A model generated the notes under the pieces. That model did no database searches, was not told the DNA's origin, and worked only from the letters and a program-made list of their open reading frames with translations. Below, in pieces: positions 3,534-33,584 of a stretch of 42,714 bases of DNA. Where the stretch lies: assembly GCA_024275455.1 (NCBI GenBank), contig JAJRZB010000449.1, positions 1 to 42,714 on the forward strand. Direction: 5' to 3'. The stretch is from Bacteroidota bacterium (GTDB lineage: Bacteria > Bacteroidota > Ignavibacteria > Ignavibacteriales > Melioribacteraceae). The position numbers and the translations under genes are program-made. Position 1 is the first letter of the stretch, and every line of letters begins with the position of its first letter.

Positions 3534-3578
3534 TATATCACAACGATATTAAAAATAATTATTACTTAAAAATAAAAT

Positions 3579-5053: not shown

Positions 5054-5064
5054 TGAAGAGTTAA

Positions 5065-6363: not shown

Positions 6364-6382
6364 ATTATAACTTGTTTAAAGT

Positions 6383-7288: not shown

Positions 7289-7293
7289 AATAG

Positions 7294-8400: not shown

Positions 8401-8475
8401 TATTTAATATTTGCTTAATAAATAATTTGTAACGAATAGAATATATTTTAAAATTTCATGTAGTAGAGGGTGTTA

Positions 8476-10193: not shown

Positions 10194-11999
10194 TTATCCG
10201 TATAAAGGTCCATAATTTTTACAAGCATTAAAATCAGCAGCTTCTAAATTATCAGTACCAAATGATTTCCATGAGCTAGGTCTAAAAATTCTGCTTTCAG
10301 CAATATTATGCATATTAACCGGTATCCGAAGCATTGAAGCAAGAGTAATTAATTTATCTCCAATATGTCCGTAACTAATAGCCCCGTGATTAGCACCCCA
10401 GTTAGCCATAACAGAATAAACATCAACAAAAGGTCCTTTGCCTGTGAGTATTGGAGCAAACCATGTTGTTGGCCAAGTAGGGTTTGTTCTACGATCAAGA
10501 ACGTCATGTACTTCTTTAGGTAAGTCAATTGTATAGCCTTCTGCAATTTGTAAAACCGGACCAAGTCCTTTTACAATATTAATTCTCGACATAGTTACCG
10601 GCATTTCTCCAATTGTAAGAAATTGTGAGGAATAACCTCCACCTCTGAAATATTCGAGTGCTGCTGGACACCAGCGTGTTGCATTCAAACATTCTTCAAC
10701 ATCTTCCTCGGTAATTTCCCAAAATGGTTTCATTACGGAATTCCCATTTTGTTTTTGTCTTCCGGTACCATCCAATGTTGTTGAGCCGGAATTAATTAAA
10801 TGAATTATACCTTTACTGGCTTTCCCCGAAAGTTCATAATTAGTAACTCTTTTTACAGATTCAGGACTCCAATAAGTCCTTACATCAGAAAATATTTGTG
10901 CCGTATCTGATAATAAATGACCGAATATCATTGAAGCCCCATTCAAACTATCATTTTCTGTAGCAACTGTAAAAGCTTCTCTAATTCCGTTCCAGTCAAA
11001 CGAAGAATTCAAAATTGCTTCTGAAAAATCACCGTTTGGAAAATGATCAGTCCATTGCCTTTGTCCTTGAAAACCTGAGATTAATGCATTGTGTCCATTA
11101 GCTTCTTCTTCGAATCCTAATTCTTTTAACTTAGGATTACCTATCATTAAATCTCTAATTATGATTGTCATTTTAACAACTGTTTCCCAATCCTTATCTT
11201 TTTGTTATCTGGAAAACTGAATTTTTTCTGAATTTATATCTTCACCTTCAATGCATTTATTTTTCACCCATTTAAGAGCTTTTTCAAACTCTTCTTTATC
11301 GTATATTTCTTCATCAATTCTTCTAATTAATTCGGACATATCAATGATAGAAGAGCGCATACCTAAATAATCTTAGAAAAAATCTTGGTCAACTATAGAA
11401 CCAACAATTCCCATAGATACACCCCCAATACCCAAGTAAGATTTATTTCTCATTTCTGCAACAGCCAAGCCAGCTTTAGCAAACAGTAATAATTTCTCTT
11501 TTACATCTTGAGGAATGGAAGTGTCATCACTATCTTGAACTTCTTTTCCGTAAATACTAAAAGTATGTAAACCTTTTTGGTTATAACCTGCTAAAGCAGC
11601 CGCTAAATAAACAGCTCCTGGTCTTTCAGTACCGTTAAACCCCCAAATAGCCTTTGGGGTTAAAGGATCAGTATCCATTACTTCAGTACCATAGCACCAA
11701 GCAGGCGTTACTGTTAAAGAAACACCAACACCTTCTCGAGCAAATTTCTCAGCTGCATTAGCAGCTTCTACAACTCCCCCAATAGTAGAATCTGCTATTA
11801 CACATTCAACTGGCATTCCGTTCGAGTGACGTAAATTGTTACTTATCAAATCAGCCGCTTTCTTTGCCATAGTCATAGTTTGTTCTTCTAATGATTCTCT
11901 TACTCCTTTGCGTCTTCCATCAATAACTGGACGTATTCCAATTTTAGGAATAGAACCTTGTAAACGAATTTTAGCTTTGGAATTATTTTTAAAAGTCAT
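10194..11999 (-). pseudogene. fucI: L-fucose isomerase, interrupted by two in-frame TAA codons (plus-strand 11373-11375 and 11205-11207)
   Basis: [78 protein letters not shown]…SSFDWNG, NWGANHG match FucI; all 602 codons are one frame apart from the two stops. Confidence 0.9.
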
Positions 12000-12058: not shown

Positions 12059-13084
12059 TTATTTTTTATTTTTTGGTTTTGCAGTAGAATTTCTAATCTC
12101 AAACTTTGTATCTACACAAATTGTTTTAATAGGAGATTTCCTTTTTGATTCGATCTGCTTCAAGAGTAGATTGAATGCTTCTTCACCAATTCTTTTTCTA
12201 AAATGACTTATGGTAGTTAGTGGAGTTGCTAAATAGGGTGAATACAAACTATCAAAAAACGCTATTAAAGAAATATCCTCAGGAATTGATAAACCATTTT
12301 CCATAATAGCTTTGATAGCTCCAAGAGTAACAAGGTCACCCCCAGATGAAACAATTGCTGTTGGCAGTTTAGGTAATTTTAAAAGTTTTAGAGTTGCTTC
12401 ATAACCATCTTCAAATTCAAATCCTTCTCCAACAACATAGTTCTTGTTTTTTTGCAAGTTAAATTTCTTTAACGCTTTGTAGTAACCATCTAATCTATTT
12501 TTAATTGTGTAGATATGTTTTTGACCTCTTAAAAAAGCAATTCGCTTATGTCCTAATTTTACAAGATGTGAAACAGCTTTCATAACTGAATCAGCATTAT
12601 TTGTAATAACTGCATTAACTTTTAAGTTCTCAAAAACTCTATCAATAAGAACAAGGGGAATTTTCTTTTCTATTAAATCAACAATATGATCTTTACTATC
12701 CTGTACCGGAGCTAAAATAATTCCATCAACACCTCGAGATATCAATTGGTTTAGGAACAACAATTCTTTATCATGATCTTCATCTGTATTGCAGACAATT
12801 ACGGTATACTTTTTATTAAACCCAAGCTGTTCGATACGCCGAGCAATTCTTGCAAAATACGGATTAAGAATATCCGGAACAATAAGGCCAATTGTAAAAC
12901 TTTTTTTCATCCTTAAAGCTCTCGCAGTAAAATCCGGAATATAATTTAGTTCCTTTACCGCCTTTAATATCTTATCGTGTGTCTTTTCTGAAATTTTAAC
13001 ATTTTCTTTTCCGCGCAAAACTCGGGAGACGGTTGAGGGATGAACGCCAACATGAGCAGCAACATCCTTTAGTGTAGGGGCCAT
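12059..13084 (-). CDS. LacI/GalR-family transcriptional regulator
   Basis: N-terminal APTLKDVAAHVGVHPSTVSRVLRG helix-turn-helix; FTIGLIVPDILNPYFARI periplasmic-binding-like domain. Confidence 0.95.
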   Translation of the reverse strand: MAPTLKDVAAHVGVHPSTVSRVLRGKENVKISEKTHDKILKAVKELNYIPDFTARALRMKKSFTIGLIVPDILNPYFARIARRIEQLGFNKKYTVIVCNTDEDHDKELLFLNQLISRGVDGIILAPVQDSKDHIVDLIEKKIPLVLIDRVFENLKVNAVITNNADSVMKAVSHLVKLGHKRIAFLRGQKHIYTIKNRLDGYYKALKKFNLQKNKNYVVGEGFEFEDGYEATLKLLKLPKLPTAIVSSGGDLVTLGAIKAIMENGLSIPEDISLIAFFDSLYSPYLATPLTTISHFRKRIGEEAFNLLLKQIESKRKSPIKTICVDTKFEIRNSTAKPKNKK

Positions 13085-13149: not shown

Positions 13150-13161
13150 ACAATCGTTTGC
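13150..13161. promoter_or_regulatory. Candidate LacI-family operator O1 (ACAATCGTTTGC)
   Basis: Quasi-palindrome with central CG, 66 bp upstream of the lacI-type start codon; matches two other sites. Confidence 0.7.
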
Positions 13162-13300: not shown

Positions 13301-13312
13301 ACAAACGATTGC
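13301..13312. promoter_or_regulatory. Candidate LacI-family operator O2 (ACAAACGATTGC)
   Basis: Reverse complement GCAATCGTTTGT; 67 bp upstream of the gmhA-like ATG and just downstream of TATAAT at 13285-13290. Confidence 0.72.
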
Positions 13313-13378
13313 CTAAGTGTTTTGTTATTGCATTAAATGCTTATTATCAATTTTAAAAATATATATAAAGAGACATTT

Positions 13379-13966
13379 ATGAAAGATATTATCAAAAACG
13401 AACTGCTTTCTCATAAGGAAGTAATTGACCTTGTTATTGAATCATTAAGTGAAGATATTCTAAAAGCTTGTGAAGTTGCTTTGAATACTATTAACAGCGG
13501 AAATAAAATTATTCTTATGGGAAATGGGGGAAGTGCTGCAGATGCACAGCACATAGCAGCAGAATTTACCGGGCGGTATAAAATTGAAAGAAGAGGTTTG
13601 CCTGCAATTGCATTAACAACCGATACTTCTGCATTAACTGCTATTGGAAATGATTATGGATATGAATATATATTTGAAAGGCAAGTTGAGGCTTTAGCTA
13701 AAAAGGGTGATTTATTAATTGGGATATCTTCCACAGGAAATAGTGATAATATAATTAGAGCTTTTAAAAGAGGAAAAGAAATAGGTTGTAATACAATTGG
13801 TTTAAGTGGAAAAGGTGGTGGAAAATTTAATGGAGTCTGTGATCTTAATGTAATTGTTCCCTCTAATAATACACCCCGTGTGCAGGAAATTCATATTTTA
13901 ATTGGTCATACAATTTGTCAAATAGTTGATTCCTTTTATCAAAACTTAGCTGAGGAGAATGAATGA
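13379..13966 (+). CDS. SIS-domain phosphoheptose isomerase (GmhA-like)
   Basis: [63 protein letters not shown]. Confidence 0.88.
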
Positions 13967-15855: not shown

Positions 15856-15867
15856 AAAGCTATTTTG

Positions 15868-18443
15868 ATGAATAATATTAAACTTGAAAAGAATTGGAAA
15901 TTACATTCGTCTGAGAATTTGAATCATGATGGCGGAAAGATATCTTTATCTGAATTTAATACTAGTGATTGGTATTCAGCTAAAGTACCCTCAACGGTTT
16001 TAGCTACTTTAGTAGAAAATGGGGTTTACCATAACCCATATTTTGGTACAAATCTTAAAAAAATTCCAACTGAACAGTTTAAGCAGCCATGGTGGTACCG
16101 ATCTGAATTTAATTTAGATGCTAAACAATCAAATAATACTGTTTTAATTTCTTTTGACGGAATTAATTATAAAGCTAATATTTGGATAAATGGAAGAATA
16201 ATAGCAGATACAAATACTGTTAATGGAGCTTTCCGAAGATTTCAGTTTGATATTTCAAAAGATGTCGCCGAAGGTAAAAATGTTCTTGCTGTAGAAGTGA
16301 TTCCGCCGAAACCAGGTGATTTTTCAATAGGTTTTGTTGATTGGAATCCTAACCCTCCGGATAATAACATTGGAATCTTTAGAGATGTTACTCTTCATTT
16401 TAATGGTGGAGTTTCAATTCGAAATCCGTTTGTTGAGACAAAAGTTGAGCTTAAAACATTACGCAAGGCAAACCTTAATATTTCGACCGAGATTGTTAAT
16501 CATACTGATAAAAAAGTGTCAGGTATTCTTCAAGGTGAAATTGAGAATATTAAATTTTTGAAATCTGTTGTCTTGGAACCTAATAAGACAAAAACCATAT
16601 ATTTTAATGCCGAGGACTTTCCTCAATTAATTTTTAAAAATCCAAAACTGTGGTGGCCGAATAGATTAGGTGACCCGAATTTATATGTTCTTCAATTGAA
16701 ATTTATTGAATCCGAAAAAATAATTGATCAGACTACTGTCTCATTTGGAATTAGGCAAATAGAAGATTACGTAAATGAAGGTGGGCACAGAGGATTCAAA
16801 GTTAATGGACATAAAGTTTTAATTAGAGGAGCTGGTTGGACAGATGATTTATTTTTACAAGACACTTATGAATCACTGAAAACCCAAATTGCTTATGTTA
16901 AAGATATGAACCTAAATTGTATTCGTCTTGAAGGTTTTTGGGGGAAAGACCAGAAATTGTATGACCTTTGTGATGAAAACGGAATATTAATTATGGTGGG
17001 TTGGAGTTGTCATTGGGAACATGAGGAATATGTTGGTAAACCGGTTGATAGCAGATACGGCGGTGTTGTTGAACCTGATGAAATTGATCTTATATCAAGA
17101 TCATGGGAAGACCAAGTTTTATGGTTGAGAAATCATCCTTCAATTTTTGTTTGGACTGTGGGTAGTGATTTACTACCGCATCCGGATTTGGAAAAAAAAT
17201 ATGTTGAAACTTTTAATAAATATGATACAACCAGACCATATTTGAATTCAACAGGTGGTATAGGCAGTGAACAGGGAATAATTTCCAGTTCGGAAATTAT
17301 TAGTGAAATAAGCGGTTCTTCTAGAGTGAAAATGTTAGGTCCTTATGCTTATACACCTCCAATTTATTGGTATACAAATAAAAATCTTGGTGGGGCTTAC
17401 GGATTTAATACGGAAACGTCTCCCGGTGCAAACATCCCTCCAATTGAAAGTATAAAAAAAATGATACCTGAAAATCATCTCTGGCCGGTAGATGAAGTCT
17501 GGAATTTTCATTGCGGCAAAAATAGTTTCTCTAATATAGATAGAACTTTAACTGCAATTGAAAAACGCTACGGTAAACCAGAAAGTGTTAATGATTTTGT
17601 TTTTAAATCACAATTACTAAATTATGAGTTGATGAGGCCAATGTTTGAAGCATTTCAAATTAACCAAGGAAAAGCAACCGGAATTATTCAGTGGATGCTT
17701 AACTCAGCTTGGCCAGAAATGTATTGGCAACTTTACGATAGTTATCTTATGCCGAACGCTGCTTATTTTGCTGCAAAAAAGCAAATGAACCTATACACAT
17801 TGTATATAATTACGGGAAGAATTCAATACATGTAGTAAATAATACGTTTAAGAGTATAAATAATCATAAAGCAAAAATTAGAATATTCAATATTAAGTCT
17901 AATATAATTTTCGAAAAAAATATAGATTTTTCTTTAAATGCAGAATCATCATTATTACTTTTTACTTTACCGGAATTATGTGACTTAACATCAGTATACT
18001 TTTTAGATTTAAGAGTAATTAACAGTAAAGGAGTTGAAGTAGAAAATAATTTTTATTGGTTATCAACTAAAAAAGATGTTCTTGATTATGATGCGGATTT
18101 TGAAGATTGGCCATTTTATACTCCAAGTAAGGAATATGCTGATTACACTTTATTGAATACTTTACCAAAAGTAAAACTAAGTATTAATTATAGTTATGAG
18201 AAACGAAAAGGTAAAGATTTTCTTATTGTATCATTAGAGAATAAGTCAAATACAATTGTTTTCTTTACTGAATTATTACTTTTTAATAAAAATACAGAAG
18301 AAGTAATTTTACCTGTTTTTTGGAGTGAAAATTATTTTAGTATTTTACCAAACGAGACAAGAGAAATTAAAGCTGATTATTCATTTGCTATGAAAAATGA
18401 AAAACCAGAATTAAGAATTAAAGGATGGAATCTAAATAATTAA
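15868..18443 (+). pseudogene. Glycoside hydrolase family 2, exo-beta-D-glucosaminidase/beta-mannosidase-like; -1 frame discontinuity at the A6 run 17775-17780
   Basis: VPSTVLATLVENGVYHNPYFGTNL, NCIRLEGFWGKDQKLYDLCDENGILIMVGWSCHWEHEEY, GAYGFNTETSPGANIP; in the -1 frame the protein continues KKANEPIHIVYNYGKNSIHVVNN…, as expected for CsxA-like GH2. Confidence 0.82.
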
Positions 18444-18482
18444 CTTTCCCAAGTTTGAAAATTAATAGCGGGAGGAACTAAA

Positions 18483-19762
18483 ATGCCTAAATTAGCAATT
18501 AATGGCGGAAGTCCGGTTAGAGATATAAAAAGTAACCCTTGGCCGGCTTGGCCCATTTGGGATGAGAATGAAGAAGAAGCTTTGATGTCGGTTCTACATA
18601 GTGGAGTGTGGTCTTATAATGGTCCTAAAGAAACAGAATTCAATAGATTATTTGCAGAGTTTACCGGTACAAAATATTCTATATGTGCTGCTAATGGTAC
18701 GGTAACCTTGCAGCTTGCACTAGAGGCTTTGGGAATTGGATTAGGAGATGAAGTTGTTTTACCAGGAATAACTTGGCAAGCAACTGCAGCAACAGTTATT
18801 GATGTTAATGCTACTCCAATACTTGTAGATGTTTGTGAAGATACATGGTGTATTAATCCCGATGAAATTGTGAAAGCGATAACCCCTAGAACAAAGGCAA
18901 TAATTCCTGTACATCTTTATGGTAACTTTGCCGATATGGATGCAATAATGGAAATTGCGAAGAAGCATAACTTAGCTGTAATTGAAGATTGTGCACATAA
19001 ACACGGTGGTGAATGGAACGGTAGAAAAGCCGGAAGTATTGGAGATGTTGGGAGTTTCAGTTTCCAGCTATCTAAACATTTAACTGCCGGTGAAGGGGAG
19101 CGCTAACAACGAATAATAGTGAGTTAGCAGAAAAACTTGACGCACTAAGAAATTGTGGTCGCAGACCGGAAGGTGAAGAATATATAGATGTTGATAAAGG
19201 TGCCGGAGTTTATGGGGATGAAGGTAATTTTATTCAATCCGGAAATTATAGGATTACAGAATTTCAAGCAGCAATTTTAGTTGAAGGCTTAAAAAGATTA
19301 CCGGAGCAAAATAAAATTCGCGATGAAAATGGGATTTATATAAATTCATTGTTGAAAGAATTACCTGGAATCCTTCCTATGCGAAGAGATGAAAGGGAAA
19401 CAAAGGAAGCATATTTTAATTTTTCCTTCAGGTATAAGAAAAATGAATTTAAGAATCTTTCCGTTGAAAAATTTAGAGGAGCTCTAACTGCTGAACTTGG
19501 TATATCTGCCGAACCTTCGTACGAACCTCTTAACATGGCTTCTCTCTATGTTCCGTTAACTAAACCGGCAAGACATAAACTAAATGACCGATATTGGGAA
19601 GATATTAATCCGGCTAGATTTAGTTTGCCTGTTTGTGAACAAATATTTAAAGAAGAATCTGTTTGTTTGCATCATAAAGTATTAATGGGTTCGAAAAAAG
19701 ATATGAAACTAATAGTTGATGCGATAAAAAAAATATATGATAATGTTGAAGAATTGATGTAA
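18483..19762 (+). pseudogene. DegT/DnrJ/EryC1 aminotransferase (AHBA synthase-like); one-base loss in the G run at 19095-19098
   Basis: GTVTLQLALEALGIGLGDEVVLPGITWQATA, HLYGNFADMDAI, IEDCAHKHGGEWNGRKAGSIGDVGSFSFQLSKHLTAGEG; restoring one G gives GALTTNNSELAEKLDALRNCGRRPEGEEY…, joining the ORF at 19349-19762. Confidence 0.85.
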
Positions 19763-19797
19763 AGTTTTATAAAAACCAATTATAAATTTTTAATAAA

Positions 19798-20802
19798 ATG
19801 AAAAGAATAAAAATAGCTTTAATAGGTTGCGGTTTTATTGCTGATTATCATGCAAGAGGATTACAATTATTGGATGATGTAGAAATTGCTGCGGTTGTCG
19901 GATTACCTTTGGAATCTGCGAAACTATTTGCAGAAAAATATAATATCCCGGATTTTACAACAGATTATTCCGATGTATTAGTTAGAAAGGATATTGATGG
20001 AGTAATAATAGGAACTCCGAATAAATTCCATGCTCCTTATGCAATAGAATTTATGAAAAACGGAAAAGATGTTTTTCTTGAAAAGCCAATGGCAATGAAC
20101 TCTATTGAGGGCGAAAATGTTATAAATGTTGCTGAAGAAAACAACAGAATTGTTATGGTTGGACATATGTGGCGTTTTGATGAAGAAACAAAATTTATTA
20201 GGGATTTAGTTCTATCCGGGAAAATAGGGAATATTGTAAAGACAAAAGGTTACGGAATACACGAAAATTGGGGACCTGAAGGTTGGTTTACTAAAAAGGA
20301 AATTGCCGGAGGAGGTGCGTTAGCTGATATGGGCGTTCATGCTATTGACACAGTAAGATTTATACTTGGTGATCCGAAGCCAAAAGAAGTTTATGCTAAA
20401 ATTGGTACTTATTATGGGGATTATGATGTTGATGATACAGGGATTATTATGATTACATGGGATAACGGAACAACATCTATTATAGAAAGCGGTTGGTGGC
20501 ATCCGCATATGGATGGTCCTGAAGCGAGTACACAATTATTTGGAACTAAGGGATACGCAGCTCTTTTTCCAACTAAAGTTAAATTCACTCCAAATAATGA
20601 TTTACAAGAAATTAAAATTCCTAAATTCAATAAAACTGAACATTGCGACCAATCAATTTATTCAAACCAAATGGCTCATTTTATAAATTGCATAAAAACA
20701 AGGAATACTCCTTCACCTGGTTTTAAAGAAGGGCAAACAGTTTTAAAAATAGTTGATGCTGCGTATAAATCCGCTGAAATTGGATCTGTTATAAGTTTAT
20801 AA
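19798..20802 (+). CDS. Gfo/Idh/MocA-family oxidoreductase
   Basis: KIALIGCGFIADYHARGL, VIIGTPNKFHAPYAIEFMKNGKDVFLEKPMA, GGALADMGVHAIDTVRFILG. Confidence 0.93.
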   Translation: MKRIKIALIGCGFIADYHARGLQLLDDVEIAAVVGLPLESAKLFAEKYNIPDFTTDYSDVLVRKDIDGVIIGTPNKFHAPYAIEFMKNGKDVFLEKPMAMNSIEGENVINVAEENNRIVMVGHMWRFDEETKFIRDLVLSGKIGNIVKTKGYGIHENWGPEGWFTKKEIAGGGALADMGVHAIDTVRFILGDPKPKEVYAKIGTYYGDYDVDDTGIIMITWDNGTTSIIESGWWHPHMDGPEASTQLFGTKGYAALFPTKVKFTPNNDLQEIKIPKFNKTEHCDQSIYSNQMAHFINCIKTRNTPSPGFKEGQTVLKIVDAAYKSAEIGSVISL

Positions 20803-20818
20803 AAATATTGGAGTTATT

Positions 20819-21661
20819 TTGAAGAATAAACAAATAATTGGGATTGATTTAGGCGGGACAAATATTAGACTTGGTTTAATAGAAGAAAATAGAATTTTAA
20901 GACTAATTTCTAAAAGAATTTCTTCCCAAGAAAATCAAAAAGTTATAATTGATGAAATAATTGAATCTATTTCCGAAATATTCAATGAGAATGTTCAAGG
21001 AATTGGCATTGGTGTGCCGAGTATTGTCGATATTGAAAGAGGAATAGTTTTCGAAGTTCATAACATTCCCTCTTGGCGAAAAGTACATCTTAAAGAAATT
21101 ATTGAAAATCAATTTAAAGTTTCTGTTAAAATAAATAATGATGTTAACTGTTTTGTTTTAGGGGAAAAATATTTTGGTAAAGGGAAGGGTTTTCATAATA
21201 TTGTTGGCTTAGCTTTAGGAACCGGGTTAGGTGGAGGCATTATAATAGATGGAAAATTATATTCGGGCAAAAATTGTGGTGCCGGAGAATTTGGGTTGAT
21301 AACATACAAAGATAAGAATTACGAATTTTATTGCAGCGGACAATATTTTAAAGAAGTACATAGGAAAATAGGTGAGGACGTTTTAAAAGAAGCGGAATCT
21401 GGCTTAAATACTTCATTACAAATATTAGATGAGTTTGGTAAACATATTGGGAATCTTATAAATTCATTAATGTATGCCCTGAATCCGGAAATAGTAATAC
21501 TGGGTGGTTCTGTAAGCAAAGCATATCCTTATTTCAAACAAAGTATGATGAAAACGTTAAAAAATCAACATGAGTTTAAAACCCAGTTAAATGATATTAG
21601 AATTGAAAACTCGGATTTGAAACAAGCAGCAGTATTAGGAGCAGCTAAGTTATTTGGCTAA
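20819..21661 (+). CDS. ROK-family sugar kinase/regulator-like protein
   Basis: IIGIDLGGTNIRLGLI, GIGVPSIVD, INNDVNCFVLGEKYFG, LALGTGLGGGIIIDGKLYSG, GAGEFG; TTG start. Confidence 0.88.
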   Translation: MKNKQIIGIDLGGTNIRLGLIEENRILRLISKRISSQENQKVIIDEIIESISEIFNENVQGIGIGVPSIVDIERGIVFEVHNIPSWRKVHLKEIIENQFKVSVKINNDVNCFVLGEKYFGKGKGFHNIVGLALGTGLGGGIIIDGKLYSGKNCGAGEFGLITYKDKNYEFYCSGQYFKEVHRKIGEDVLKEAESGLNTSLQILDEFGKHIGNLINSLMYALNPEIVILGGSVSKAYPYFKQSMMKTLKNQHEFKTQLNDIRIENSDLKQAAVLGAAKLFG

Positions 21662-21752: not shown

Positions 21753-21781
21753 TTGACAAATTATAATATTATTGTTAATGT
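21753..21781 (+). promoter_or_regulatory. Possible promoter (TTGACA, 17 bp, TAATGT)
   Basis: TTGACA at 21753-21758, TAATGT at 21776-21781; operator O3 begins 8 bp downstream. Confidence 0.45.
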
Positions 21782-21789
21782 TGAGTTAC

Positions 21790-21801
21790 GCAATCGTTTG
21801 C
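21790..21801. promoter_or_regulatory. Candidate LacI-family operator O3 (GCAATCGTTTGC)
   Basis: Same motif upstream of the duplicated-domain surface protein; follows TTGACA/TAATGT. Confidence 0.72.
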
Positions 21802-21938: not shown

Positions 21939-24017
21939 ATGAAAAAAACAGTGCACTTTTTATTTTTAGCACTATTTGTTTTGTCATTTTCTACATCATA
22001 TGCTCAAATAATGATGGATGGAGATGATGCTGATTGGGCAGATGTTCCGGTACTGTTCAATGCACCAAATAACGAAGATGGTGTTTTCCCTACAGAAGTT
22101 GGGGCTGTAGTTAACGATATAGTAGACATTAAGGAAGCCAAAGCTGTTGTTGTTGGCGATGTAATCTATGGATTACTTCGTTTTTGGGGCGGTCCTGCTT
22201 GGCCAAATAATGCCTATCAAAATGATCATGATGGTACAATATATCCTGAATCAAGAGGTTATTATCATTTCTTATTTGATTTAGATAATGATGTAACTAC
22301 CGGTTGGAATACAGCTTGGTACGAAGCTCATTATACTCCAGTTGGATATCTACAAAGTCTTGCTGTTGAAGGACAAGAACCAATTGGTGCTGAAGTAATG
22401 CAAGAATGGGGTGCTAGAACTAATGATGCCTGGAAACAACAAAATGAAGGTGCATCATATATTAGGAATCTTGATCACTGGGCTGCTGATTATTCCGAAT
22501 ATAACGGTGAAACAGATTTAGGTAGTGATTATGAAATTTTTAATATTACTGTTCCTAATGCTGATTCAGCAAAAATGATGATGTGGGAAGGTTCCGCAAA
22601 AATAAATAGCAGTGATGATGCAACTCTTGTTAGTGATATGTATTCTTATTGGGTTGGCCATGCTTGGGGAAACGATTTCCTTGAATTTGGATTAGAATGG
22701 ACTCCTATTAGAAAATATTATGCTAACAAAGGTATTAGTTATTTAAATCCTGGTGATGTTATTGGTGTTTGTGGTATGACTGAAACTCCAATTGATGACT
22801 GGGCAGTTGACATGACAACTCGCGGTGAAATAACTTTACCAACCGAGATGCCAATGCGTCCTGACGAATTTTCATTTGATGGTGATGAATCTGATTGGGC
22901 AGAAATGCCGGTATTAATCAGTGCCCCAAATAATGAGGATGGTGTATTCCCAACTGAAGTTGGTGCAGTAGTTAACGATATAGTAGATATTAAAGAAGTT
23001 AAAGGTAAAATTGATGCTGAAAATGTTTATTGGTATCTAAAATTCTGGGGTGGTCCAGCTTGGCCGAATAATGCTTACCAGAATGACCATGACGGTACAA
23101 TCTATAATGAATCTAGAGGATATTATCATATTTTAATGGATATCGATAATGATCTTACTACCGGTTGGAATACAGCTTGGTATGAAGCACACTATACTCC
23201 TGTTGGTTATTTACAAAGTCTTGCTGTTGAAGGACAAGATCCAATTGGTGCAGAAGTTATGTTAGAGTGGGGTGCCAGAACAAATGATGATTGGAAAGTG
23301 GCTAATGAGGGTGCTTCTCCAATTAGAAATTTAGATTATTGGGCTGCTGATTATTCTGAATACAATGGTGAAACAGATCTTGGTAGTGATTATGAAATAT
23401 ACAATTATGAAGTTATGGATAAAGACAGCACTACTGTTATGCATCATGATGGTCTCTTATTAAATAACTCAAGTGATGACCCAACAACAATGGATGGACA
23501 ACCGGATTGGATGGCACATAGTTGGGGTAATGATTTCTTAGAAGTTGGAATGTCTTTGCGTACATTAAGAAATTATTTCAAAACTAAAACCGGTATGGAT
23601 TATTTTAATGAAGGTGACGTTATTGGTATTTGCGGTATGACTGAAACTCCAATTGATGATTGGGCCGTTGATATGACAACAAGAGGTGAATTTAGTATTG
23701 TAACTGGAATTAATGACAACAGAAGTAACGTTGTTGCTGATAAATTTACTCTCGGTAATAATTATCCTAATCCATTTAACCCTTCTACAAATATCAGTTT
23801 TACAGTTACTAAATTAGCTAAAGTTTCTTTAGTTATTTATAATACTTTAGGTCAGAAAGTAAGAACTTTAATGGATAATAAAGAATTATCAGGAAATCAA
23901 TCAACAGTTTGGAATGGTAAAAATGATTTTGGAAGCAGTGTTCCAAGTGGTGTTTATTATTATAGAATGGAATCAGGCTCAAATTCAATTACAAAAAGTA
24001 TGGTCTTGTTAAAATAG
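21939..24017 (+). CDS. Secreted T9SS-sorted protein with two tandem ~270-aa domains (CBM9-like resemblance)
   Basis: GGAGGT ribosome-binding site before ATG 21939; signal peptide MKKTVHFLFLALFVLSFSTSYAQ; two near-identical domains; C-terminal NNYPNPFNPSTNISF…GVYYYRMESGSNSITKSMVLLK. Confidence 0.82.
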   Translation: MKKTVHFLFLALFVLSFSTSYAQIMMDGDDADWADVPVLFNAPNNEDGVFPTEVGAVVNDIVDIKEAKAVVVGDVIYGLLRFWGGPAWPNNAYQNDHDGTIYPESRGYYHFLFDLDNDVTTGWNTAWYEAHYTPVGYLQSLAVEGQEPIGAEVMQEWGARTNDAWKQQNEGASYIRNLDHWAADYSEYNGETDLGSDYEIFNITVPNADSAKMMMWEGSAKINSSDDATLVSDMYSYWVGHAWGNDFLEFGLEWTPIRKYYANKGISYLNPGDVIGVCGMTETPIDDWAVDMTTRGEITLPTEMPMRPDEFSFDGDESDWAEMPVLISAPNNEDGVFPTEVGAVVNDIVDIKEVKGKIDAENVYWYLKFWGGPAWPNNAYQNDHDGTIYNESRGYYHILMDIDNDLTTGWNTAWYEAHYTPVGYLQSLAVEGQDPIGAEVMLEWGARTNDDWKVANEGASPIRNLDYWAADYSEYNGETDLGSDYEIYNYEVMDKDSTTVMHHDGLLLNNSSDDPTTMDGQPDWMAHSWGNDFLEVGMSLRTLRNYFKTKTGMDYFNEGDVIGICGMTETPIDDWAVDMTTRGEFSIVTGINDNRSNVVADKFTLGNNYPNPFNPSTNISFTVTKLAKVSLVIYNTLGQKVRTLMDNKELSGNQSTVWNGKNDFGSSVPSGVYYYRMESGSNSITKSMVLLK
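22020..23690 (+). repeat. Tandem domain duplication, period 861 bp (about 287 codons)
   Basis: GDDADWADVPV at 22020 and GDESDWAEMPV at 22881; long identical peptide stretches shared by both copies. Confidence 0.9.
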
Positions 24018-24227: not shown

Positions 24228-25646
24228 ATGACTTTTAATTCTTATCTGAAATATTTTGGATTACTTTTATTAACTGGTATTTTTTTGTTTGGATGCTCAG
24301 AATCAAAAGAGAATAGTGAATTAGCATCTTTTAAAAATGGGCATGTTTTAACCAATGAATACATAGATCATTTCTTACTCAGTTCAAAATATAAACCTGA
24401 CAAATTGCCAACCGAAGAAAACCTGAAAGAAATAGTTCTAAAAAAGGCTCTTGAAAAAATGGCAGTTCAAGAAGCAGAAAGTATGAATATTGATAAAGAC
24501 TCTCTTTATCAATACGTTATTCAAAATAATGAACGTAGATTACTCTATCAAAATTATGTGCAGTCCGAAATCACACCGACGGTTATTACAGATAGTTTAG
24601 TACAAAAATTTTATTCGGAATTTTCTCCACAATATCGAATGAAATACATTATGCGTCCTTTTTTGAAAAATTCTACGGAAGAATTTTTAAATTCACAAAA
24701 GAAAAAAATTGAAGAAGCATATAAACGTTTAAAAAACGGAGATAAATTTGAAGATATAACTCAAAAATATTCCCAGGATATTTCATCTAATAAAAAAGGT
24801 GGTGATATAGGCTGGATGATTAGGGAATCTATGGGTGATGAAGCTTTAAGAGAAGTTTATGATACTTTAACTCAATATACATATTCAAAACCTTTTAAGG
24901 GGTACGGCGGTTATTATATTTTATACAAAGGTAAAAAAAGAGAAGTTAGTGTGCCACCGTTTGAAAATATAAAACAACAAATTTGGAAAACTTTATACCA
25001 AAGTAGAAAAATCTTTATAGAAAATGCGATTGACAGAAGATTTAAGGAATTATCCAAAAAATATCATTATCAAGAATTTAGTGATATAGTAACAAAATTA
25101 CTTAAAAAAGCCGGAAGTAATAAGAACAAACCGAAGACAACAACACTTAATTTCGGAAATCTTAACAATAATGATAAAGCAACAATAATTGCTAAATATG
25201 ACGGCGGTGTTATTACGGTAAAAGATTTATTTGCTGATCGAAAAAGGTCTCCAACAAATGAAATTGAATTTTTTAATAGATTTAAAAGTATTTCGCGTCA
25301 ACATTTACTATCCAAACATGCCAAAGAATTAAATCTCCAGAATGTTGGTGCTTTGAAAGAACAGCTTAATAATATGAAGACTTCACTTTTAAGGACAATT
25401 CTTTATCAAAGAGTTGTTAAAGATAAAGTATTAGAACTGCTTTCGGAAAATAAAGATCTTAAAGGTGAAGAGAAAATAAGAAAAAGAAGCGAATATGAAA
25501 ACAGCCTAAGAACAGAGTTTGAAAATAAGTTGAAAATCAAGTATGAATTTAGATTCGAAACAAAAAACTTTAAAAAAGCATTAGAAATAGCATTGCAAAA
25601 AAAGAAATTACAAAATTCAGAATTAGATAAGAAAAAGAAAAATTAA
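24228..25646 (+). CDS. PpiC/SurA-type peptidyl-prolyl isomerase lipoprotein
   Basis: Lipobox LTGIFLFGCSES; parvulin-like YSQDISSNKKGGDIGWMIRESMGDEALREVYDTLTQYTYSKPFKGYGGYYILY. Confidence 0.8.
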   Translation: MTFNSYLKYFGLLLLTGIFLFGCSESKENSELASFKNGHVLTNEYIDHFLLSSKYKPDKLPTEENLKEIVLKKALEKMAVQEAESMNIDKDSLYQYVIQNNERRLLYQNYVQSEITPTVITDSLVQKFYSEFSPQYRMKYIMRPFLKNSTEEFLNSQKKKIEEAYKRLKNGDKFEDITQKYSQDISSNKKGGDIGWMIRESMGDEALREVYDTLTQYTYSKPFKGYGGYYILYKGKKREVSVPPFENIKQQIWKTLYQSRKIFIENAIDRRFKELSKKYHYQEFSDIVTKLLKKAGSNKNKPKTTTLNFGNLNNNDKATIIAKYDGGVITVKDLFADRKRSPTNEIEFFNRFKSISRQHLLSKHAKELNLQNVGALKEQLNNMKTSLLRTILYQRVVKDKVLELLSENKDLKGEEKIRKRSEYENSLRTEFENKLKIKYEFRFETKNFKKALEIALQKKKLQNSELDKKKKN

Positions 25647-25698: not shown

Positions 25699-28626
25699 TT
25701 GATGATGAAACTAATCATTAAAAAAAATAACTTATTCTATTTTGTTTTAGCAACCCTTTATTTTACTTTATTTACATCTTTAATGTTTGCCGGTTCAACT
25801 GGTAAAATTGGAGGAAAAGTAACAGATGCTAATACAGGCGAACCACTACTTGGGGCTAATATTGTGGTTATGGATGGTAGTGGTAAAGGAACAGCTACCG
25901 ATATAAATGGTGAATATCTTTTACTAAACTTGTCTCCTAAAACCTATAAATTGCGAATTTCAATGATTGGGTACAAAACTGTTGAAATTTCTGAGGTGCG
26001 TGTTTTTATAGATAGAACGGTAAGAGTTGATATTAAGCTAGAAGAGCAGATAATTGAAGGTGAAGTTGTAGTAGTTGAAGCCAAAAGAGAAGCGGTTGAA
26101 TTAGATAGAACTAACACAGCCTCATATGTTAATAGTGAAGAAATTGAATCGTTACCGGTATCAACATTAAATGAAGTTCTTCAATTGCAGGCAGGTGTTG
26201 TTAAAGATGCCGGTGGAGATTTACATATAAGAGGAGGTAGATCAAGAGAAATTTCTTACATGATTGACGGGGTACCGGTTACAAATACATTTAGTCAAAG
26301 TGGAGGCTCAAATGTTAATGTAGAAAATAATTTTATTCAAGAATTGCAAGTAATAACCGGAACTTTTAACGCTGAATACGGTTCAGCTCAATCAGGAGTA
26401 ATTAATGTTGTAACAAAAGTACCTGATCAAAATTTTTCTGGTACAATTGAAGCTTTAAGTGGAGGATATTATGCCCCAAGTTCTCCTATGTATATTGGCG
26501 GGCTTGATAAATTTGATTTTTTAAATGAAAGTGAAGTTAAATTCTCAGTTTCAGTTCCAGTAAAGATAATCCCCGAAAGTTTAGGTAAATTGGGCTTTTT
26601 ATTTAACGGAAGAGTTGAAGATTCTAAGGGCTGGTTAAATGGTGAAAGAAGGTTTAGCCCGGAAGATGGTTGGGAAATTGCAGTTTACAGAGAATGGTAT
26701 AGAGCAAGATTTGATCCTCCTGACCCACTTGTAATTCCATTACCGGATTCTTTACATACTGGTGATGGAAAGATAATTAATATGGAAACCAGGAAAAACT
26801 TTAATTTTAATACAAAATTGGTATATCAGCCGTTTGCAGGCGTAACAACATCTTATAGCATTTTTTACAGTAAAGTTAATACTACAGATTTTAGAAATTC
26901 TTGGAAATTTACTCCAGATGCTATTCCAACAAGATACTCAGACAATATAACTCATATGGTTGTATTGACTCATACTCCAACGGATAATATTTATTATAAT
27001 CTTCGTTATTCTTATCAGATAAATCATGATAAAGAATATATGTATGAAAGTGCTGATGATCCTCGATATCAAAGTACATCAGTTAATCAATGGGATCCCG
27101 GTGCTATAACAGGTTTCGATTATGGAGGAATATACAGTTGGGACCGAAATTGGTTCGATCAATATATTAACTTAGTTAATGGTGATCTAACATGGCAAAT
27201 AAATAAAATATTGGAAATAAAATTAGGTTTTGAAGGCAAAGCGTATAATATTCATTATAAAAATGCGCCCATGAAGGAAGTGTTAGGACACGAGATAATT
27301 CAATACCCTTATACACAAAGTGAAATTCGTGCTTTTGAATTACCTTGGGAGTTTTTTAGAGATGCTACTAGGGACTACGAATATGGTAATATTCAATTAA
27401 GAGAAGCTCATCCTGATAGTTCTGCTGATGATTTGTTTTATATAGATTATACAAGAAAACCTTTTGAAGGAGCAGCATTTGCACAAACAACTTTAAATAT
27501 GGGTGAAATAGTACTTAATGCAGGGGTACGATTTGATTATTTTGATGCTCAAGATAGGTATGCCCCAACATATGTTAATGTTTTACCTGAGCTTGTTGGA
27601 GATGATCGATATTATGAAAAAGTAAAAAGTAAATATCAATTCAGTCCTAGATTTGGACTTTCTTTTCCAATATCAGATGGCGGTGCTTTACGTCTTTCTT
27701 ACGGACATTTTTTTCAAACACCCAGTTATCAAAAAATGTTTGATAATCCTGTACTTCCTCATTACAATCAATTTAGTATTGCTAATACAACAATTGGTAA
27801 TCCTAATCTAAAACCGGAAAAAACAATTCAATATGAAATCGGTGTGCAACAAGAAATAACATCTGATTTATCTACGGAATTGAGTGTTTTTTATAAGGAT
27901 ATTAGAGATTTGCTTGGTGTTGAATTATTGACTTTAAGTAATGCTACAACATTTAGAAGGTATATAAATAAAGAGTATGGAAGTTCTTCAGGGTTAACTT
28001 TTGCATTAAATTATAGATCTTCAGATGGTAGATTAACAGCAGGATTAGATTATACTTATATGGTAGCAAAGGGTACCTCATCTTCCCCTGAAGCTGCTTT
28101 GGATGTTCAGATACTTTCAGGACCAAGTCAAGGAGCATTTACTTTAGCAAAACGGAGAGTTGGGTATTTAAATTGGGATCAAACTCATTCATTAAATGCA
28201 ACTGTTAGTATACGCCCTATTGAAAAAACTTTAATTAGTATTATTAGTCGTATGGGTTCAGCATTACCATACACTCCAAGTACATTGGGTTATGGACTAG
28301 ACCTTCCGGGTGGATGGTGGGATAATATTGACAGGAAACCATTTCAATGGAATGTTGATTTGAGGGTTTCAAGAGGATTCGAAGTTTTTGGTATGGAGTT
28401 TTTAGCAAACTTGAATATATTTAATGTGTTTAATCACCTTATTGAAAATAGAGTTAATTCAATTACCGGTAGAGCAGGTCCAAATGCTTATCTACCGGAA
28501 ATTGCAAGTAGACGTTATTCTAGAATTAACCAAGTTGGTGATTTTACTCCAACTGAAGCGGATTATAATCCCTCATGGTATTCTCGTCCGAGATTTATAC
28601 AATTTGGTTTAGGGTTACAATTTTAA
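25699..28626 (+). CDS. TonB-dependent receptor with N-terminal carboxypeptidase-regulatory-like domain
   Basis: GKVTDANTGEPLLGANIVVMDGSGKGTATDINGEYLLLNLSP; plug domain VNSEEIESLPVSTLNEVLQLQAGVV…IDGVPV…EYGSAQSGVINVVTK; beta-barrel-like C-terminus. Confidence 0.92.
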   Translation: MMMKLIIKKNNLFYFVLATLYFTLFTSLMFAGSTGKIGGKVTDANTGEPLLGANIVVMDGSGKGTATDINGEYLLLNLSPKTYKLRISMIGYKTVEISEVRVFIDRTVRVDIKLEEQIIEGEVVVVEAKREAVELDRTNTASYVNSEEIESLPVSTLNEVLQLQAGVVKDAGGDLHIRGGRSREISYMIDGVPVTNTFSQSGGSNVNVENNFIQELQVITGTFNAEYGSAQSGVINVVTKVPDQNFSGTIEALSGGYYAPSSPMYIGGLDKFDFLNESEVKFSVSVPVKIIPESLGKLGFLFNGRVEDSKGWLNGERRFSPEDGWEIAVYREWYRARFDPPDPLVIPLPDSLHTGDGKIINMETRKNFNFNTKLVYQPFAGVTTSYSIFYSKVNTTDFRNSWKFTPDAIPTRYSDNITHMVVLTHTPTDNIYYNLRYSYQINHDKEYMYESADDPRYQSTSVNQWDPGAITGFDYGGIYSWDRNWFDQYINLVNGDLTWQINKILEIKLGFEGKAYNIHYKNAPMKEVLGHEIIQYPYTQSEIRAFELPWEFFRDATRDYEYGNIQLREAHPDSSADDLFYIDYTRKPFEGAAFAQTTLNMGEIVLNAGVRFDYFDAQDRYAPTYVNVLPELVGDDRYYEKVKSKYQFSPRFGLSFPISDGGALRLSYGHFFQTPSYQKMFDNPVLPHYNQFSIANTTIGNPNLKPEKTIQYEIGVQQEITSDLSTELSVFYKDIRDLLGVELLTLSNATTFRRYINKEYGSSSGLTFALNYRSSDGRLTAGLDYTYMVAKGTSSSPEAALDVQILSGPSQGAFTLAKRRVGYLNWDQTHSLNATVSIRPIEKTLISIISRMGSALPYTPSTLGYGLDLPGGWWDNIDRKPFQWNVDLRVSRGFEVFGMEFLANLNIFNVFNHLIENRVNSITGRAGPNAYLPEIASRRYSRINQVGDFTPTEADYNPSWYSRPRFIQFGLGLQF

Positions 28627-28645: not shown

Positions 28646-29719
28646 ATGCAAAACTTAAAAATGAAATATTTAATTTTATTACTACTAATAATTGAAGCAT
28701 CCACTCAAATAATATTTGCTCAAGTTGATGCTAAAGATTTAGCATTTGATACGGATGCTGATAAAAGAGGTTCAGCAGCCGCAACAATGCTTGGCATTGG
28801 TGTAGGTGCAAGAGCAGAAGCACTTGGTGGTGCATTCGTAGCAATTGCCGATGATCCATCTGCGTTATATTGGAATCCGGCTGGAATTACTCAAATTAAG
28901 TCTATTTCCCTACAAGTAACTAAAACCGATTGGTTTGTTAATACCGATTTTAGTGTTTTAGATTTGGTTGTCCCATTACCATCACTTGGTTCGGCATTAG
29001 GATTTCATTTAGCAATGTTAGATTATGGTGAAAATCCCGTAAGAACTGTTTTTAGACCTGAAGGAACCGGAGAAACTTATTCAGCTTCAGATTTTGTTGC
29101 CGGGCTTTATTTTGCCATGGGGATTACTGATAGAGTATCAACCAGCTTAGGTGTAAAATATTTTAAACAAAATATTTGGCATGTTAGTGGTTCGGCTGTT
29201 GGGTTTGATCTTTCTATTTTATTTCAAACACCTCTTGAAGGGTTAAAACTGGGTGGAATGATTAGTAACTTAGGTCCTGAGTTTGGTTTATCTGGCAGGG
29301 ATTTAACAAGCATAATGGATGTTGACGGACGAAAGCCAATTTTTCTAAATAATGATAATGTTCCCATTAATCTTGCTACGGAAACTTATCCTCTTCCATT
29401 GTTATTCAGATTTGGAATTGCTTATAAATATTACCTAAGTGAAAATAATTCGCTAACAGTTGCAACAAATTTGAACCATCCAAGTAACAATGTTGAAACA
29501 GTTGATTTTGGTTTTGAAGCAAATATTTTTAATTCCTTTTATTTACGAGCTGGATATCAATCATTATTTGCAGATGCAGCCGAAAACGGCTTAACACTGG
29601 GTGCCGGAATCAATTATAAAGTTTTGGATATTGCTACTTTTGTTGTTGATTATTCATGGTCTGATTGGGGAGTTTTATCATCTGTTAATAGATTTTCAAT
29701 AGGTATTAGCGGTTATTAA
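28646..29719 (+). CDS. PorV/PorQ-family outer membrane protein
   Basis: MLGIGVGARAEALGGAFVAIADDPSALYWNPAGI motif; beta-barrel-like alternation. Confidence 0.85.
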   Translation: MQNLKMKYLILLLLIIEASTQIIFAQVDAKDLAFDTDADKRGSAAATMLGIGVGARAEALGGAFVAIADDPSALYWNPAGITQIKSISLQVTKTDWFVNTDFSVLDLVVPLPSLGSALGFHLAMLDYGENPVRTVFRPEGTGETYSASDFVAGLYFAMGITDRVSTSLGVKYFKQNIWHVSGSAVGFDLSILFQTPLEGLKLGGMISNLGPEFGLSGRDLTSIMDVDGRKPIFLNNDNVPINLATETYPLPLLFRFGIAYKYYLSENNSLTVATNLNHPSNNVETVDFGFEANIFNSFYLRAGYQSLFADAAENGLTLGAGINYKVLDIATFVVDYSWSDWGVLSSVNRFSIGISGY

Positions 29720-29873: not shown

Positions 29874-32800
29874 GTGCTATTTTTAAGAAGTCTTGGAAAA
29901 AAAGTTAGAAAAAATCTCACAATAATTATTGTATTACTCGCGTTACTTTTAAGTTCTTATTCAAATAATTTTGCTCAAGTGGCAGGTGCTACATCTGATT
30001 CAAATCCAATGCATTGGGCCAGGTATTGGGCAAGGGGTCTTTTTGATAGGAATTTAGTTTATACTACAGTATGGAATATAGGAAACATTAATGGATTAAG
30101 ATGGCCTGGTAGTCAAGGACTAAATTATCTTTCCAGTGCACATTTTCTTATTGCGGCATATGTAACAGACATGTCAGCCTATAAAGGTAAGGTAGTTCCT
30201 GAAACATGGGATGGAACTCAATTTGGGATACTTAGTAACGCATATCTTCCTCATGTTAGTAATGCAACAGTTGCACAATTGTCATCTGATAGAACACATC
30301 AACAGATTTGGCAGCCTATGCCCGGGTGGTACAATGATGGATTTTATGGGTTTATTTGGGGAATAAATGAAGATGTAAACCGTGATGGTCAATTAGATCC
30401 AAGTGAAGACGTTAACTTTAACGGGGTTTTAGATCTAAATCTTGATCCCCCGGAAAGTATATTAAAAAGCATGGCAATTAGTACGGATAAAAGAACATGG
30501 CCGGAATACTGGCCGGGAGGTTCATATGTTGGAGATACAAGACCTCCAGCCGGACGTCCTCCAAGAACTACCCGTGCTGGTGATCGTGCCGGTAGATGGA
30601 ATGGTGAATATAAAGCAGGGCCTATTGCAGATCAAGAAGCTATATATATGATGGATGATCATGAAAACGATTATTGGGAAGACTATACTGTATTACGTGA
30701 TTGGCCAATGAAAAATCCTGATGGGACACCTGATACAACCAAGTGGAATGATCCGGATGTAAATAATATTAGTATTAGAGGCACTGGTGTTGAAGTTGAA
30801 TCAAGAACTTACGCTTGGTTCCATCCGCTTGCCGAGGATATTCTCGTTTCAGTGTATAGAGTTAGAAATTATAGTGATTATAATCTTGATAGAGTTGTAA
30901 CGGGGATGTGGGCAGATGCAAATATTGTTCAGGGTACTTTTAATGCTGCCAATTATGTTGTTGCGGAATTTGGTGCCGGTGATGAAGGAAGACTTGAATT
31001 TGATATACTGTATCAATGGCATCAATTTCCTGATCAATTAAATCAATATCAAAAAATTGGAGTTTTTGGTTTCGCATTTCTTGAAAGTCCGGGTATTGAA
31101 TATAATGGTGAAGATGATGATAAAGACGGAATGGTTGATGAAGATATGGCTGATGGGATTGATAATGATGGTGATTGGAGACCCTTTGCGGATATTGGTC
31201 TTCCTGATATTGAAGGAACTGCTGGTAATGGAAAGTGGGATACTGAGGATGTAAACTTAAATGGTGGTTTAGATCCCGGTGAAGATGTTAATAAAAATGA
31301 TAAACTTGATTTTGAACCTGTTAATGATGATCGTGGTACAGATGGTATTGGTCCCGATGAAAACGGATGGCCAGGTCCCGATCCTGATGGGACCGAAGTT
31401 AATGGTTTAATTGATATCGGTGAGCCTAATTATGATATTACAGATATTGATGAAGCTGATCAAGCCGGACTTGGGCATGTATTCGTTTACGAGTTAAATA
31501 AAGAATTAAGAAATCAAAAAGGATTTTGGGAAAAATATTTAAGTAAACCCGGTTATGAAGTTGAAGAAACGGATGAAAATATATGTTTTATCTTCGGCGC
31601 TAAAGATGTTAGATTAGAAACTACAGACGCACTAAAACAAGCACAACGTCCGGAATGGAAAAGATTTACAATTGCGCTCCTGATGGGTGAAGACCAGGAA
31701 GATATTGTTAGGAATAAGGCAACAATGCAAAGTATTTATAACAATAATTATCGTTTTCTTACCCCGCCATTACAACCAACACTAATTTCTAATGTAACGG
31801 ATAGAAAAGTTCAGTTGTATTGGGATACCGATGCTGAGGGTTCTAAAGATCCGTTTTTCGGTCTTGATTTTAACGGATATAGATTATATAAGAGTACTGA
31901 CCCGGCTTTTCTCGATATTAAAACAATTACAGATGCGTTTGGTAATGTACTTCTTTTTGAACCACTTGAAATATTCGATAGATCAGATGATGGTTTAAGG
32001 GTAGCACATCCGGTACCATTCCCAAATTTAGGGGTGCATTACGATATGGGAAATAATAGCGGACTAAAACATTCGTATGTTGATACTCTTGTAGAAAACG
32101 GACGTACATATTACTATGCCGTAACTTCTATAGATGCTGGAAATGATTTTGATTTTTATGAAAGAGGGATTGTAACTGAAGATTATCCTTTACGTGCTAT
32201 GCCGAGCGAATCTCCGTCTAATATTACTGTAAATCAGTTGGGAGATGTTGTTTTTAGGGATCGAAACACTGCGGTTTGTACTCCTCAAGAACCCGCTGCA
32301 GGGTATACAGAACCTTATGTAGATTCTTTAAAAATTAAACATGTATCTGGATATGCCAGAGGAGGAAGATTTAATGTTGATGTGTTTAATAAGAATCATG
32401 CAACCGATCATCTTGGGGAAATATATCAGTTAACATTTAAGGATGATGGGTGGTTAACAGAAAAGACACCACTTTATAAATGGGGAAGTACACGTGGAAT
32501 TACCTTAATGAATATTACAACAGGTGATACACTTTTTGATTTTCAATATCCAGGTCCTTCAGCTTTTTATACAAATGGTTATAAAAGTATTGAAAGGGGA
32601 ATTTATGAAGGAATAAAATATGATTTTAATTTTCCTGTAGAAGACCTTGTTGATAATGATAACGATACTAAAAGGGAAATATCTATTATTAAATATAATG
32701 AGTTGGGAAGAGAAACTAATGAGTGGAAACAATGGGCAACTGATTCAAAGTCTAATGTTAGATGTAATGCAATAGAATTAACGGGGTCTAGTTTTGCATT

Positions 32801-33584
32801 ACCTAGAGATTTTGATTTGGTTGTTTATGATCATATTGTTGATACATCATATGCTCCGCCTCCAAATCCTCCGTTTCCACAATTATTAAATAAGTATCCG
32901 ATAAACTTTATTGTTTGGGATGTTACTGATCCGAATAATAAAATTAAAATGAAAGTAAGCGTTATTTATGAAAAGAATAAAACTGGAGGAAATTATTTGC
33001 CTCCGGAAATGTTTGGACAAATTTGGGATAGCACAAGAGTTGTAATTAGATTTCCTAAACATGAAAGTATTTCAGGCAATGACAGATATTGGTCATCTTG
33101 GGAAATGAGATTTTTTAAACCAGATTTTGCAAGAAAGGATACTACTGTTATTCCTCCGGCTCCTGGGGATATTTATAGTTTTAGAACAGAAAGAAACCCT
33201 ACGGAACAAGATACATTTCAATTTACAATTGATGGAGGCGAATGGTTGGCTAATGATGTAAATAGTTCTGAAAAGAAAAAGGTATATGTTGTTCCTGATC
33301 CGTATATTGCAGCAAGTACTTTAGAACCGATTTATGAATTAGCCGGTAATTCTCAAAGAAGAGTAGAGTTTGTAAATTTACCTCCGGAATGTACTATTTA
33401 TATTTTTACTGCCAGTGGTGAATTGGTGAAAAAAATACCACATAGTTCTCCTTATGATGTTGGCAGACATGCTTGGGATTTAACTTCGGAAGATGGACCA
33501 GAGGTAGCTTTCGGAATTTATTTCTTTGTTATTGAAGCAAAAGGCTTGGAAACACAAAGAGGAAAATTTGCTATTATTAAATAA
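29874..33584 (+). CDS. Giant (1236 aa) secreted surface protein with Asp-rich Ca-binding-like repeats, Fn3-like segment and T9SS-type C-terminus
   Basis: GTG start; signal peptide ending NNFAQ; DVNRDGQLDPSEDVNFNGVLDLN and DVNLNGGLDPGEDVNKNDKLD; C-terminus IYIFTASGELVKKI…GIYFFVIEAKGLETQRGKFAIIK. Confidence 0.75.
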   Translation: MLFLRSLGKKVRKNLTIIIVLLALLLSSYSNNFAQVAGATSDSNPMHWARYWARGLFDRNLVYTTVWNIGNINGLRWPGSQGLNYLSSAHFLIAAYVTDMSAYKGKVVPETWDGTQFGILSNAYLPHVSNATVAQLSSDRTHQQIWQPMPGWYNDGFYGFIWGINEDVNRDGQLDPSEDVNFNGVLDLNLDPPESILKSMAISTDKRTWPEYWPGGSYVGDTRPPAGRPPRTTRAGDRAGRWNGEYKAGPIADQEAIYMMDDHENDYWEDYTVLRDWPMKNPDGTPDTTKWNDPDVNNISIRGTGVEVESRTYAWFHPLAEDILVSVYRVRNYSDYNLDRVVTGMWADANIVQGTFNAANYVVAEFGAGDEGRLEFDILYQWHQFPDQLNQYQKIGVFGFAFLESPGIEYNGEDDDKDGMVDEDMADGIDNDGDWRPFADIGLPDIEGTAGNGKWDTEDVNLNGGLDPGEDVNKNDKLDFEPVNDDRGTDGIGPDENGWPGPDPDGTEVNGLIDIGEPNYDITDIDEADQAGLGHVFVYELNKELRNQKGFWEKYLSKPGYEVEETDENICFIFGAKDVRLETTDALKQAQRPEWKRFTIALLMGEDQEDIVRNKATMQSIYNNNYRFLTPPLQPTLISNVTDRKVQLYWDTDAEGSKDPFFGLDFNGYRLYKSTDPAFLDIKTITDAFGNVLLFEPLEIFDRSDDGLRVAHPVPFPNLGVHYDMGNNSGLKHSYVDTLVENGRTYYYAVTSIDAGNDFDFYERGIVTEDYPLRAMPSESPSNITVNQLGDVVFRDRNTAVCTPQEPAAGYTEPYVDSLKIKHVSGYARGGRFNVDVFNKNHATDHLGEIYQLTFKDDGWLTEKTPLYKWGSTRGITLMNITTGDTLFDFQYPGPSAFYTNGYKSIERGIYEGIKYDFNFPVEDLVDNDNDTKREISIIKYNELGRETNEWKQWATDSKSNVRCNAIELTGSSFALPRDFDLVVYDHIVDTSYAPPPNPPFPQLLNKYPINFIVWDVTDPNNKIKMKVSVIYEKNKTGGNYLPPEMFGQIWDSTRVVIRFPKHESISGNDRYWSSWEMRFFKPDFARKDTTVIPPAPGDIYSFRTERNPTEQDTFQFTIDGGEWLANDVNSSEKKKVYVVPDPYIAASTLEPIYELAGNSQRRVEFVNLPPECTIYIFTASGELVKKIPHSSPYDVGRHAWDLTSEDGPEVAFGIYFFVIEAKGLETQRGKFAIIK

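Follow-up and report, generated by a model that had tools for sequence, protein, structure and literature searches.

The closest described systems are multi-operon regulons of the LacI family, such as those of CcpA, FruR, PckR and GapR (PMC4052901). Operators of this family usually lie 30–140 bp before genes, and 13 bp is a known peak in the spacing of the sites (PMC4052901). Among the family members of Bacteroides, KdgR, UxaR, UxmR and UxuR are given for uronates (PMC3878776). The survey of the LacI family (PMC4052901) contains no mention of "Ignavi", and a literature search on LacI and TonB in Ignavibacteria found nothing.

We propose that the stretch of DNA analysed here (the window; 42,714 nucleotides of contig JAJRZB010000449.1, from a member of the Melioribacteraceae) encodes, at 12059–13084, a LacI repressor that acts on its own gene and on a multi-operon regulon, and that a predicted operator at 21790 brings a TonB block under its control. 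Judged from the sequence, this reading has a probability of roughly 0.85. Mechanisms of this type are familiar, and the case is one of ordinary bacterial sugar regulation.

The LacI repressor and the cytoplasmic sugar block

The repressor gene, the two predicted operators beside it and the genes that bound the cytoplasmic block are as follows:

12059..13084, minus strand: LacI-family repressor with recognition helix HPSTVSRVL (PF00356, 57.9 bits; PF00532, 113 bits; PF13377, 95.7 bits)
13150..13161, plus strand: predicted operator ACAATCGTTTGC, lacI side of the lacI-gmhA divergent region, putative autoregulation
13301..13312, minus strand: predicted operator GCAATCGTTTGT, gmhA side of the lacI-gmhA divergent region
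13337..13966, plus strand: SIS-domain sugar-phosphate isomerase, gmhA-like (TIGR00441, barely over the cut-off), opening the cytoplasmic block
20819..21661, plus strand: ROK-family sugar kinase (PF00480), the last gene ahead of the operator region at 21790

The protein joins an N-terminal LacI helix-turn-helix to a periplasmic-binding-like effector domain, and PurR and CcpA are among its nearest solved structures and family models. Since it falls under every equivalog cut-off (RbsR 242.9 against 382, PurR 232 against 501, CcpA 195 against 442), no named function was given. It has orthologues in two relatives, G019 (84%) and G026 (61%); a search of genome contigs with the protein brought up distant relatives from actinobacteria and no others. 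Predicted sites lie at its own promoter region, and both are kept in G019 at the same position and with the same 151-bp spacing, the site at 13150 falling within a 15-nt block that is invariant between the two genomes; ACAATCGATTGT is found ahead of lacI in G026. By comparison with G019, the gmhA-like gene likely starts at 13379.

Several genes of this region are broken. The fucI gene (10194–11999, minus strand) carries two in-frame TAA stops (11373–11375 and 11205–11207) and is still 86% identical over its length to the intact gene of G019; the stops may represent recent decay or an assembly error. The genes for a GH2 glycosidase (15865–18450) and a DegT aminotransferase (18483–19762) have one frameshift each and continue in another frame; the broken genes of the cytoplasmic block may reflect a decaying pathway or sequence errors. 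Genes for the DegT aminotransferase, a Gfo/Idh/MocA dehydrogenase and the ROK kinase are consecutive at 18483–21661, an order that recalls the amino-sugar gene sets of the kanosamine/AHBA type.

The predicted operator and probable promoter of the TonB block

Behind the ROK kinase gene are a probable promoter, the third predicted operator and the surface-protein/TonB block:

21753..21781, plus strand: probable promoter, TTGACA-17-TAATGT or CTTG-N20-TAATGTTG (-33/-7, Bacteroidota-like)
21790..21801, plus strand: predicted operator GCAATCGTTTGC, ahead of the surface-protein/TonB block
21939..24017, plus strand: secreted surface protein, internally duplicated, with a type IX-type C-terminal sorting signal (CHU_C, Por_Secre_tail); first gene of the block
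24228..25646, plus strand: PPIC-type peptidyl-prolyl isomerase, lipoprotein-like (PF00639; 54% to the syntenic G026 gene)
25699..28626, plus strand: TonB-dependent outer-membrane receptor (PF00593/PF07715; 70% to the syntenic G026 gene)
28646..29719, plus strand: PorV/PorQ-family outer-membrane protein (NF033709, over the cut-off; 73% to the syntenic G026 gene)
29874..33584, plus strand: large surface protein (70% over its first 353 residues to the syntenic G026 gene, which ends at a contig end)

An earlier reading of the window, made from its letters alone (the sequence-only reading), had described a TTGACA-17-TAATGT promoter ahead of the 21790 site, 138 bp from the site to a duplicated surface protein and 8.5 kb between the cytoplasmic and the cell-surface functions. 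All of this was confirmed: the hexamers occupy 21753–21758 and 21776–21781 with a 17-nt spacer, the ATG, with a GGAGG, is at 21939, the surface protein is internally duplicated, and the 8.5 kb separates the sites at 21790 and 13301. The site had also been called a third identical operator, which is not correct, as ACAATCGTTTGC and GCAATCGTTTGT differ from GCAATCGTTTGC at the end bases. The three have CAATCGTTTG in common, and those at 13150 and 13301 each show one mismatch to GCAAWCGWTTGC.

TAATGT agrees with TATAAT at only three of six positions and is thus a weak -10, below the scan threshold, which is why the promoter is missing from the sigma-70 scan list; by that scan it is not distinguishable from chance. 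The -33/-7 promoter type of Bacteroidota has TTTG and TAnnTTTG, and we take CTTG-N20-TAATGTTG to be the better fit to this type. Relative to the promoter elements, whose position gives the presumed start, the operator spans about +2 to +13.

This is not a canonical SusC/SusD locus: a TonB receptor is present at 25699, and no SusD family was detected among the 27 window proteins scanned. The large surface protein at 29874, without matches in Pfam and NCBIfam, is probably co-transcribed with the block. Farther along the window another large secreted protein (38931–40865), with no Pfam match, lies downstream of BNR-repeat sialidase-like and ceramidase-like genes.

Distribution of the motif in the genome

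Counts were obtained by pattern searches and from fetched contigs of the 3.74 Mb assembly (549 contigs, 89% complete). A genome-wide scan for the motif, which the sequence-only reading had proposed as a check, showed RCAATCGTTTGY to be enriched, with 10 copies against 1.7 expected (Poisson P ~1e-5). It was uninformative for the perfect 12-mer GCAAWCGWTTGC, whose single copy in 3.74 Mb (0.53 expected) is close to chance, and which was rejected as evidence for a regulon. Significance from the window alone was also rejected, matches with up to two mismatches (7 against 4.5 expected) showing no enrichment there.

There are 14 copies of the shared core CAATCGTTTG in the genome (3.74 Mb), against 8.3 expected under a first-order model. 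Eleven of these copies are intergenic, with about 9% of the sampled contigs lying outside ORFs (P ~7e-10), a share that may be too low an estimate, mechanical ORFs being part of the ORF list; the copy at C289:11067 was scored as intergenic after its ORF start had been moved to fit the G019 orthologue. The remaining three are coding, in a flagellar-cluster gene (C443) and in frames of C476 and C491. When the three sites of the window were left out of the training set, the resulting matrix ranked them first (13302), second (21791) and fourth (13151) of all positions in the window; at the lowest of the three scores, 0.2 chance matches are expected. A further match at 42039 was taken as chance, being inside a coding frame. 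The form and placement expected of LacI operators, an even CG-centred palindrome 30–140 bp upstream, are seen at 21790 (138 bp), and the genome holds 12 intergenic sites.

The intergenic operators are nearly all asymmetric at the centre (CAATCGTTTG, 11 sites), and of eight symmetric forms one is intergenic and the others coding; this observation covers contigs C3, C153, C263, C284, C289, C490 and C322 of the genome (G000). Many symmetric operators are used in G026, unlike in the window genome.

Predicted operators on six other contigs precede sugar-catabolic, TonB or secreted-protein genes:

C3: a GDPD gene and a ThuA gene
C153: 3-keto-disaccharide hydrolase and GlcNAc 2-epimerase, a BT_2158-like dehydrogenase (below the cut-off) and a xylose-isomerase-like protein
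C263: a metallo-beta-lactamase-fold protein; also a GSU2086-family protein, followed downstream by a transporter-like gene and ribulokinase
C284: two proteins with sorting tails and an amidohydrolase
C490: two sites, between aldehyde dehydrogenase and iron alcohol dehydrogenase on one side and GDPD and alpha-L-rhamnosidase on the other
C289: a second TonB-type operon; a DUF3078 protein

The predicted target set is a sugar and cell-surface regulon and not a collection of random genes. No recognisable operator accompanies the genes at 55–9954, within the window's first 10 kb. The first of them (55–867), truncated at the contig start, scores 459.7 bits with the NCBIfam model "nickel-dependent putative hexonate epimerase" (cut-off 500) and adjoins 6PGDH-like and TRAP-transporter genes.

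Conservation in related genomes

In G026, which belongs to another genus, an orthologue of the surface protein (C385, 65% identity over the full length) is followed by the same genes for the PPIase, TonB receptor, PorV and large protein (54–73%). Upstream of this block lie GCAATCGTTTGT and GCAATCGATTGG, 13 bp apart. Conservation ahead of orthologues, on which the sequence-only reading had made its proposal depend, was therefore found for this block; the position itself is not conserved, the distance from operator to ATG being 138 bp in the window and about 440 bp in G026. The lacI, fucI and gmhA genes of G026, with sites of their own, are on a different contig from the TonB block, which argues that the link between the two is the operator and not adjacency. 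Sites are also kept in G026 and/or G019 ahead of the DUF1080, GSU2086-like, ALDH/GDPD and DUF3078 operons, the first genes of which are 70–93% identical. In G001, a relative of the same genus, a close orthologue of LacI is missing (37%), as are RCAATCGTTTGY sites. The second TonB operon, on C289, matches C293 of G026 at only 39% over 231 residues, too little for orthology to be claimed.

The suggestion that one LacI-type regulator governs both the surface/TonB block and the sugar genes of the cytoplasm is thus well supported, by the site kept in G026 and by the different character of the genome's only other detected LacI. In the phrase "one coordinated locus" the shared control stands and the single locus does not, given the operators on six other contigs, the siteless genes at 55–9954 and the separate blocks in G026. 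The TonB block should instead be regarded as one member of a dispersed regulon.

Proposed regulation and alternatives

We infer binding by LacI, repression through this binding and release by a glycan breakdown product. When no sugar effector is present, a LacI dimer would bind the CG-centred near-palindrome at 21790 (about +2 to +13) and block transcription of the surface-protein/PPIase/TonB/PorV block; it is this place behind the promoter from which repression by a transcription block is argued. Bound to the two lacI-gmhA operators, the same protein would repress its own gene together with the cytoplasmic sugar operon. Similar operators ahead of operons on the six other contigs would also be bound by it. 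A product of glycan breakdown would release it. The fucI, ribulokinase, alpha-L-rhamnosidase and 3-keto-disaccharide hydrolase targets suggest an effector derived from a pentose or deoxyhexose, or from a glycoside.

Perhaps a different LacI-family protein reads the 21790 site, either the one encoded on C227, next to what we take from its sequence to be a uxaC-like gene, or one missing from the 89% complete assembly, in which case the blocks would not be under the window's repressor. Relatives do have several LacI paralogues, some of which, at ~35% identity, carry the RCAAWCGWTTGY core at their promoters as well. However, two LacI genes and no more were detected in this genome, and G026 retains the sites alongside an orthologue of the window's LacI. 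The C227 protein has the helix KVTVSKAL and palindromes of the TTAACCGTTAA/TTTAACGATTA type at its own promoter; as both helix and palindrome differ, it was rejected as the reader of the site. A paralogue with the same specificity residues, which the sequence-only reading had named as a competing explanation, was accordingly not seen in this assembly, 89% complete as it is. Across the order the operator motif tracks the type of recognition helix. Among 29 LacI loci with a readable helix, which are related homologues and hence not independent counts, RCAAWCGWTTGY occurs exactly or with one mismatch within 300 bp upstream of lacI in 23 of 25 with an [ST]TVSR helix and in none of the four with MMTVSR or VATVSR. 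G026 is represented here by the first gene of a tandem lacI pair; the pair (C93:1567–3647; 61% and 50% to the window's gene) lies ahead of fucI, in a genome that also uses symmetric operators. We consider control by another LacI unlikely.

Activation is established for some multi-operon members of the LacI family, FruR among them, and the window's LacI might act as an activator or dual regulator at the 21790 promoter, in the way that Cra/FruR does at certain promoters. The sites of G026, so far upstream of the ATG, would suit this, but the operator of the window begins at about +2 behind the promoter elements, a repressor position, and most other sites in the genome are close before genes, so that activation appears similarly unlikely. 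Finally, AT-rich intergenic DNA might have produced the site by chance, with the TonB block regulated otherwise. This agrees with the single perfect GCAAWCGWTTGC and the unremarkable number of two-mismatch matches in the window, but is made very improbable by the two sites upstream of the G026 block, by the excess of the core across the genome and its intergenic bias, and by the second rank of the operator by a matrix built from other sites.

Repression of a dispersed regulon by the window's LacI provides a hypothesis for an uncharacterised TonB/PorV surface block without a recognisable SusD. The common operator groups some ten dispersed operons, and this grouping helps to assign unknown proteins, namely the GSU2086-like, DUF3078 and duplicated surface proteins.

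Comparison with known systems

With the regulons of CcpA, FruR, PckR and GapR (PMC4052901) the present system shares the even CG-centred palindrome, autoregulation (here predicted from sites), the control of many sugar operons, the 30–140 bp placement and the 13-bp overlapping pairs, the last in the relative G026. It differs in that its targets are not those of central glycolysis; they are secreted and TonB surface genes together with peripheral catabolic operons. A broader view, offered tentatively, is that a lineage-specific multi-operon LacI might couple SusD-less secreted/TonB surface machinery to dispersed pentose, deoxyhexose and 3-keto-glycoside operons, and in this genome might favour asymmetric CAATCGTTTG operators over the symmetric ones that G026 also uses. 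The PurR boxes of Haemophilus (PMC3739930) and the MalR operator of Streptococcus pneumoniae (PMC4451989) have nearly the same core, GCAAACGTTTGC; most of the present sites, by contrast, have an asymmetric centre, and the genes they precede are not those for purines or maltose. The Bacteroides regulators KdgR, UxaR, UxmR and UxuR (PMC3878776) are likewise LacI proteins of sugar use in TonB-rich Gram-negatives, but in place of uronate genes the predicted targets here are fucI, ROK, GH78, 3-keto-disaccharide hydrolase and the TonB/PorV block.
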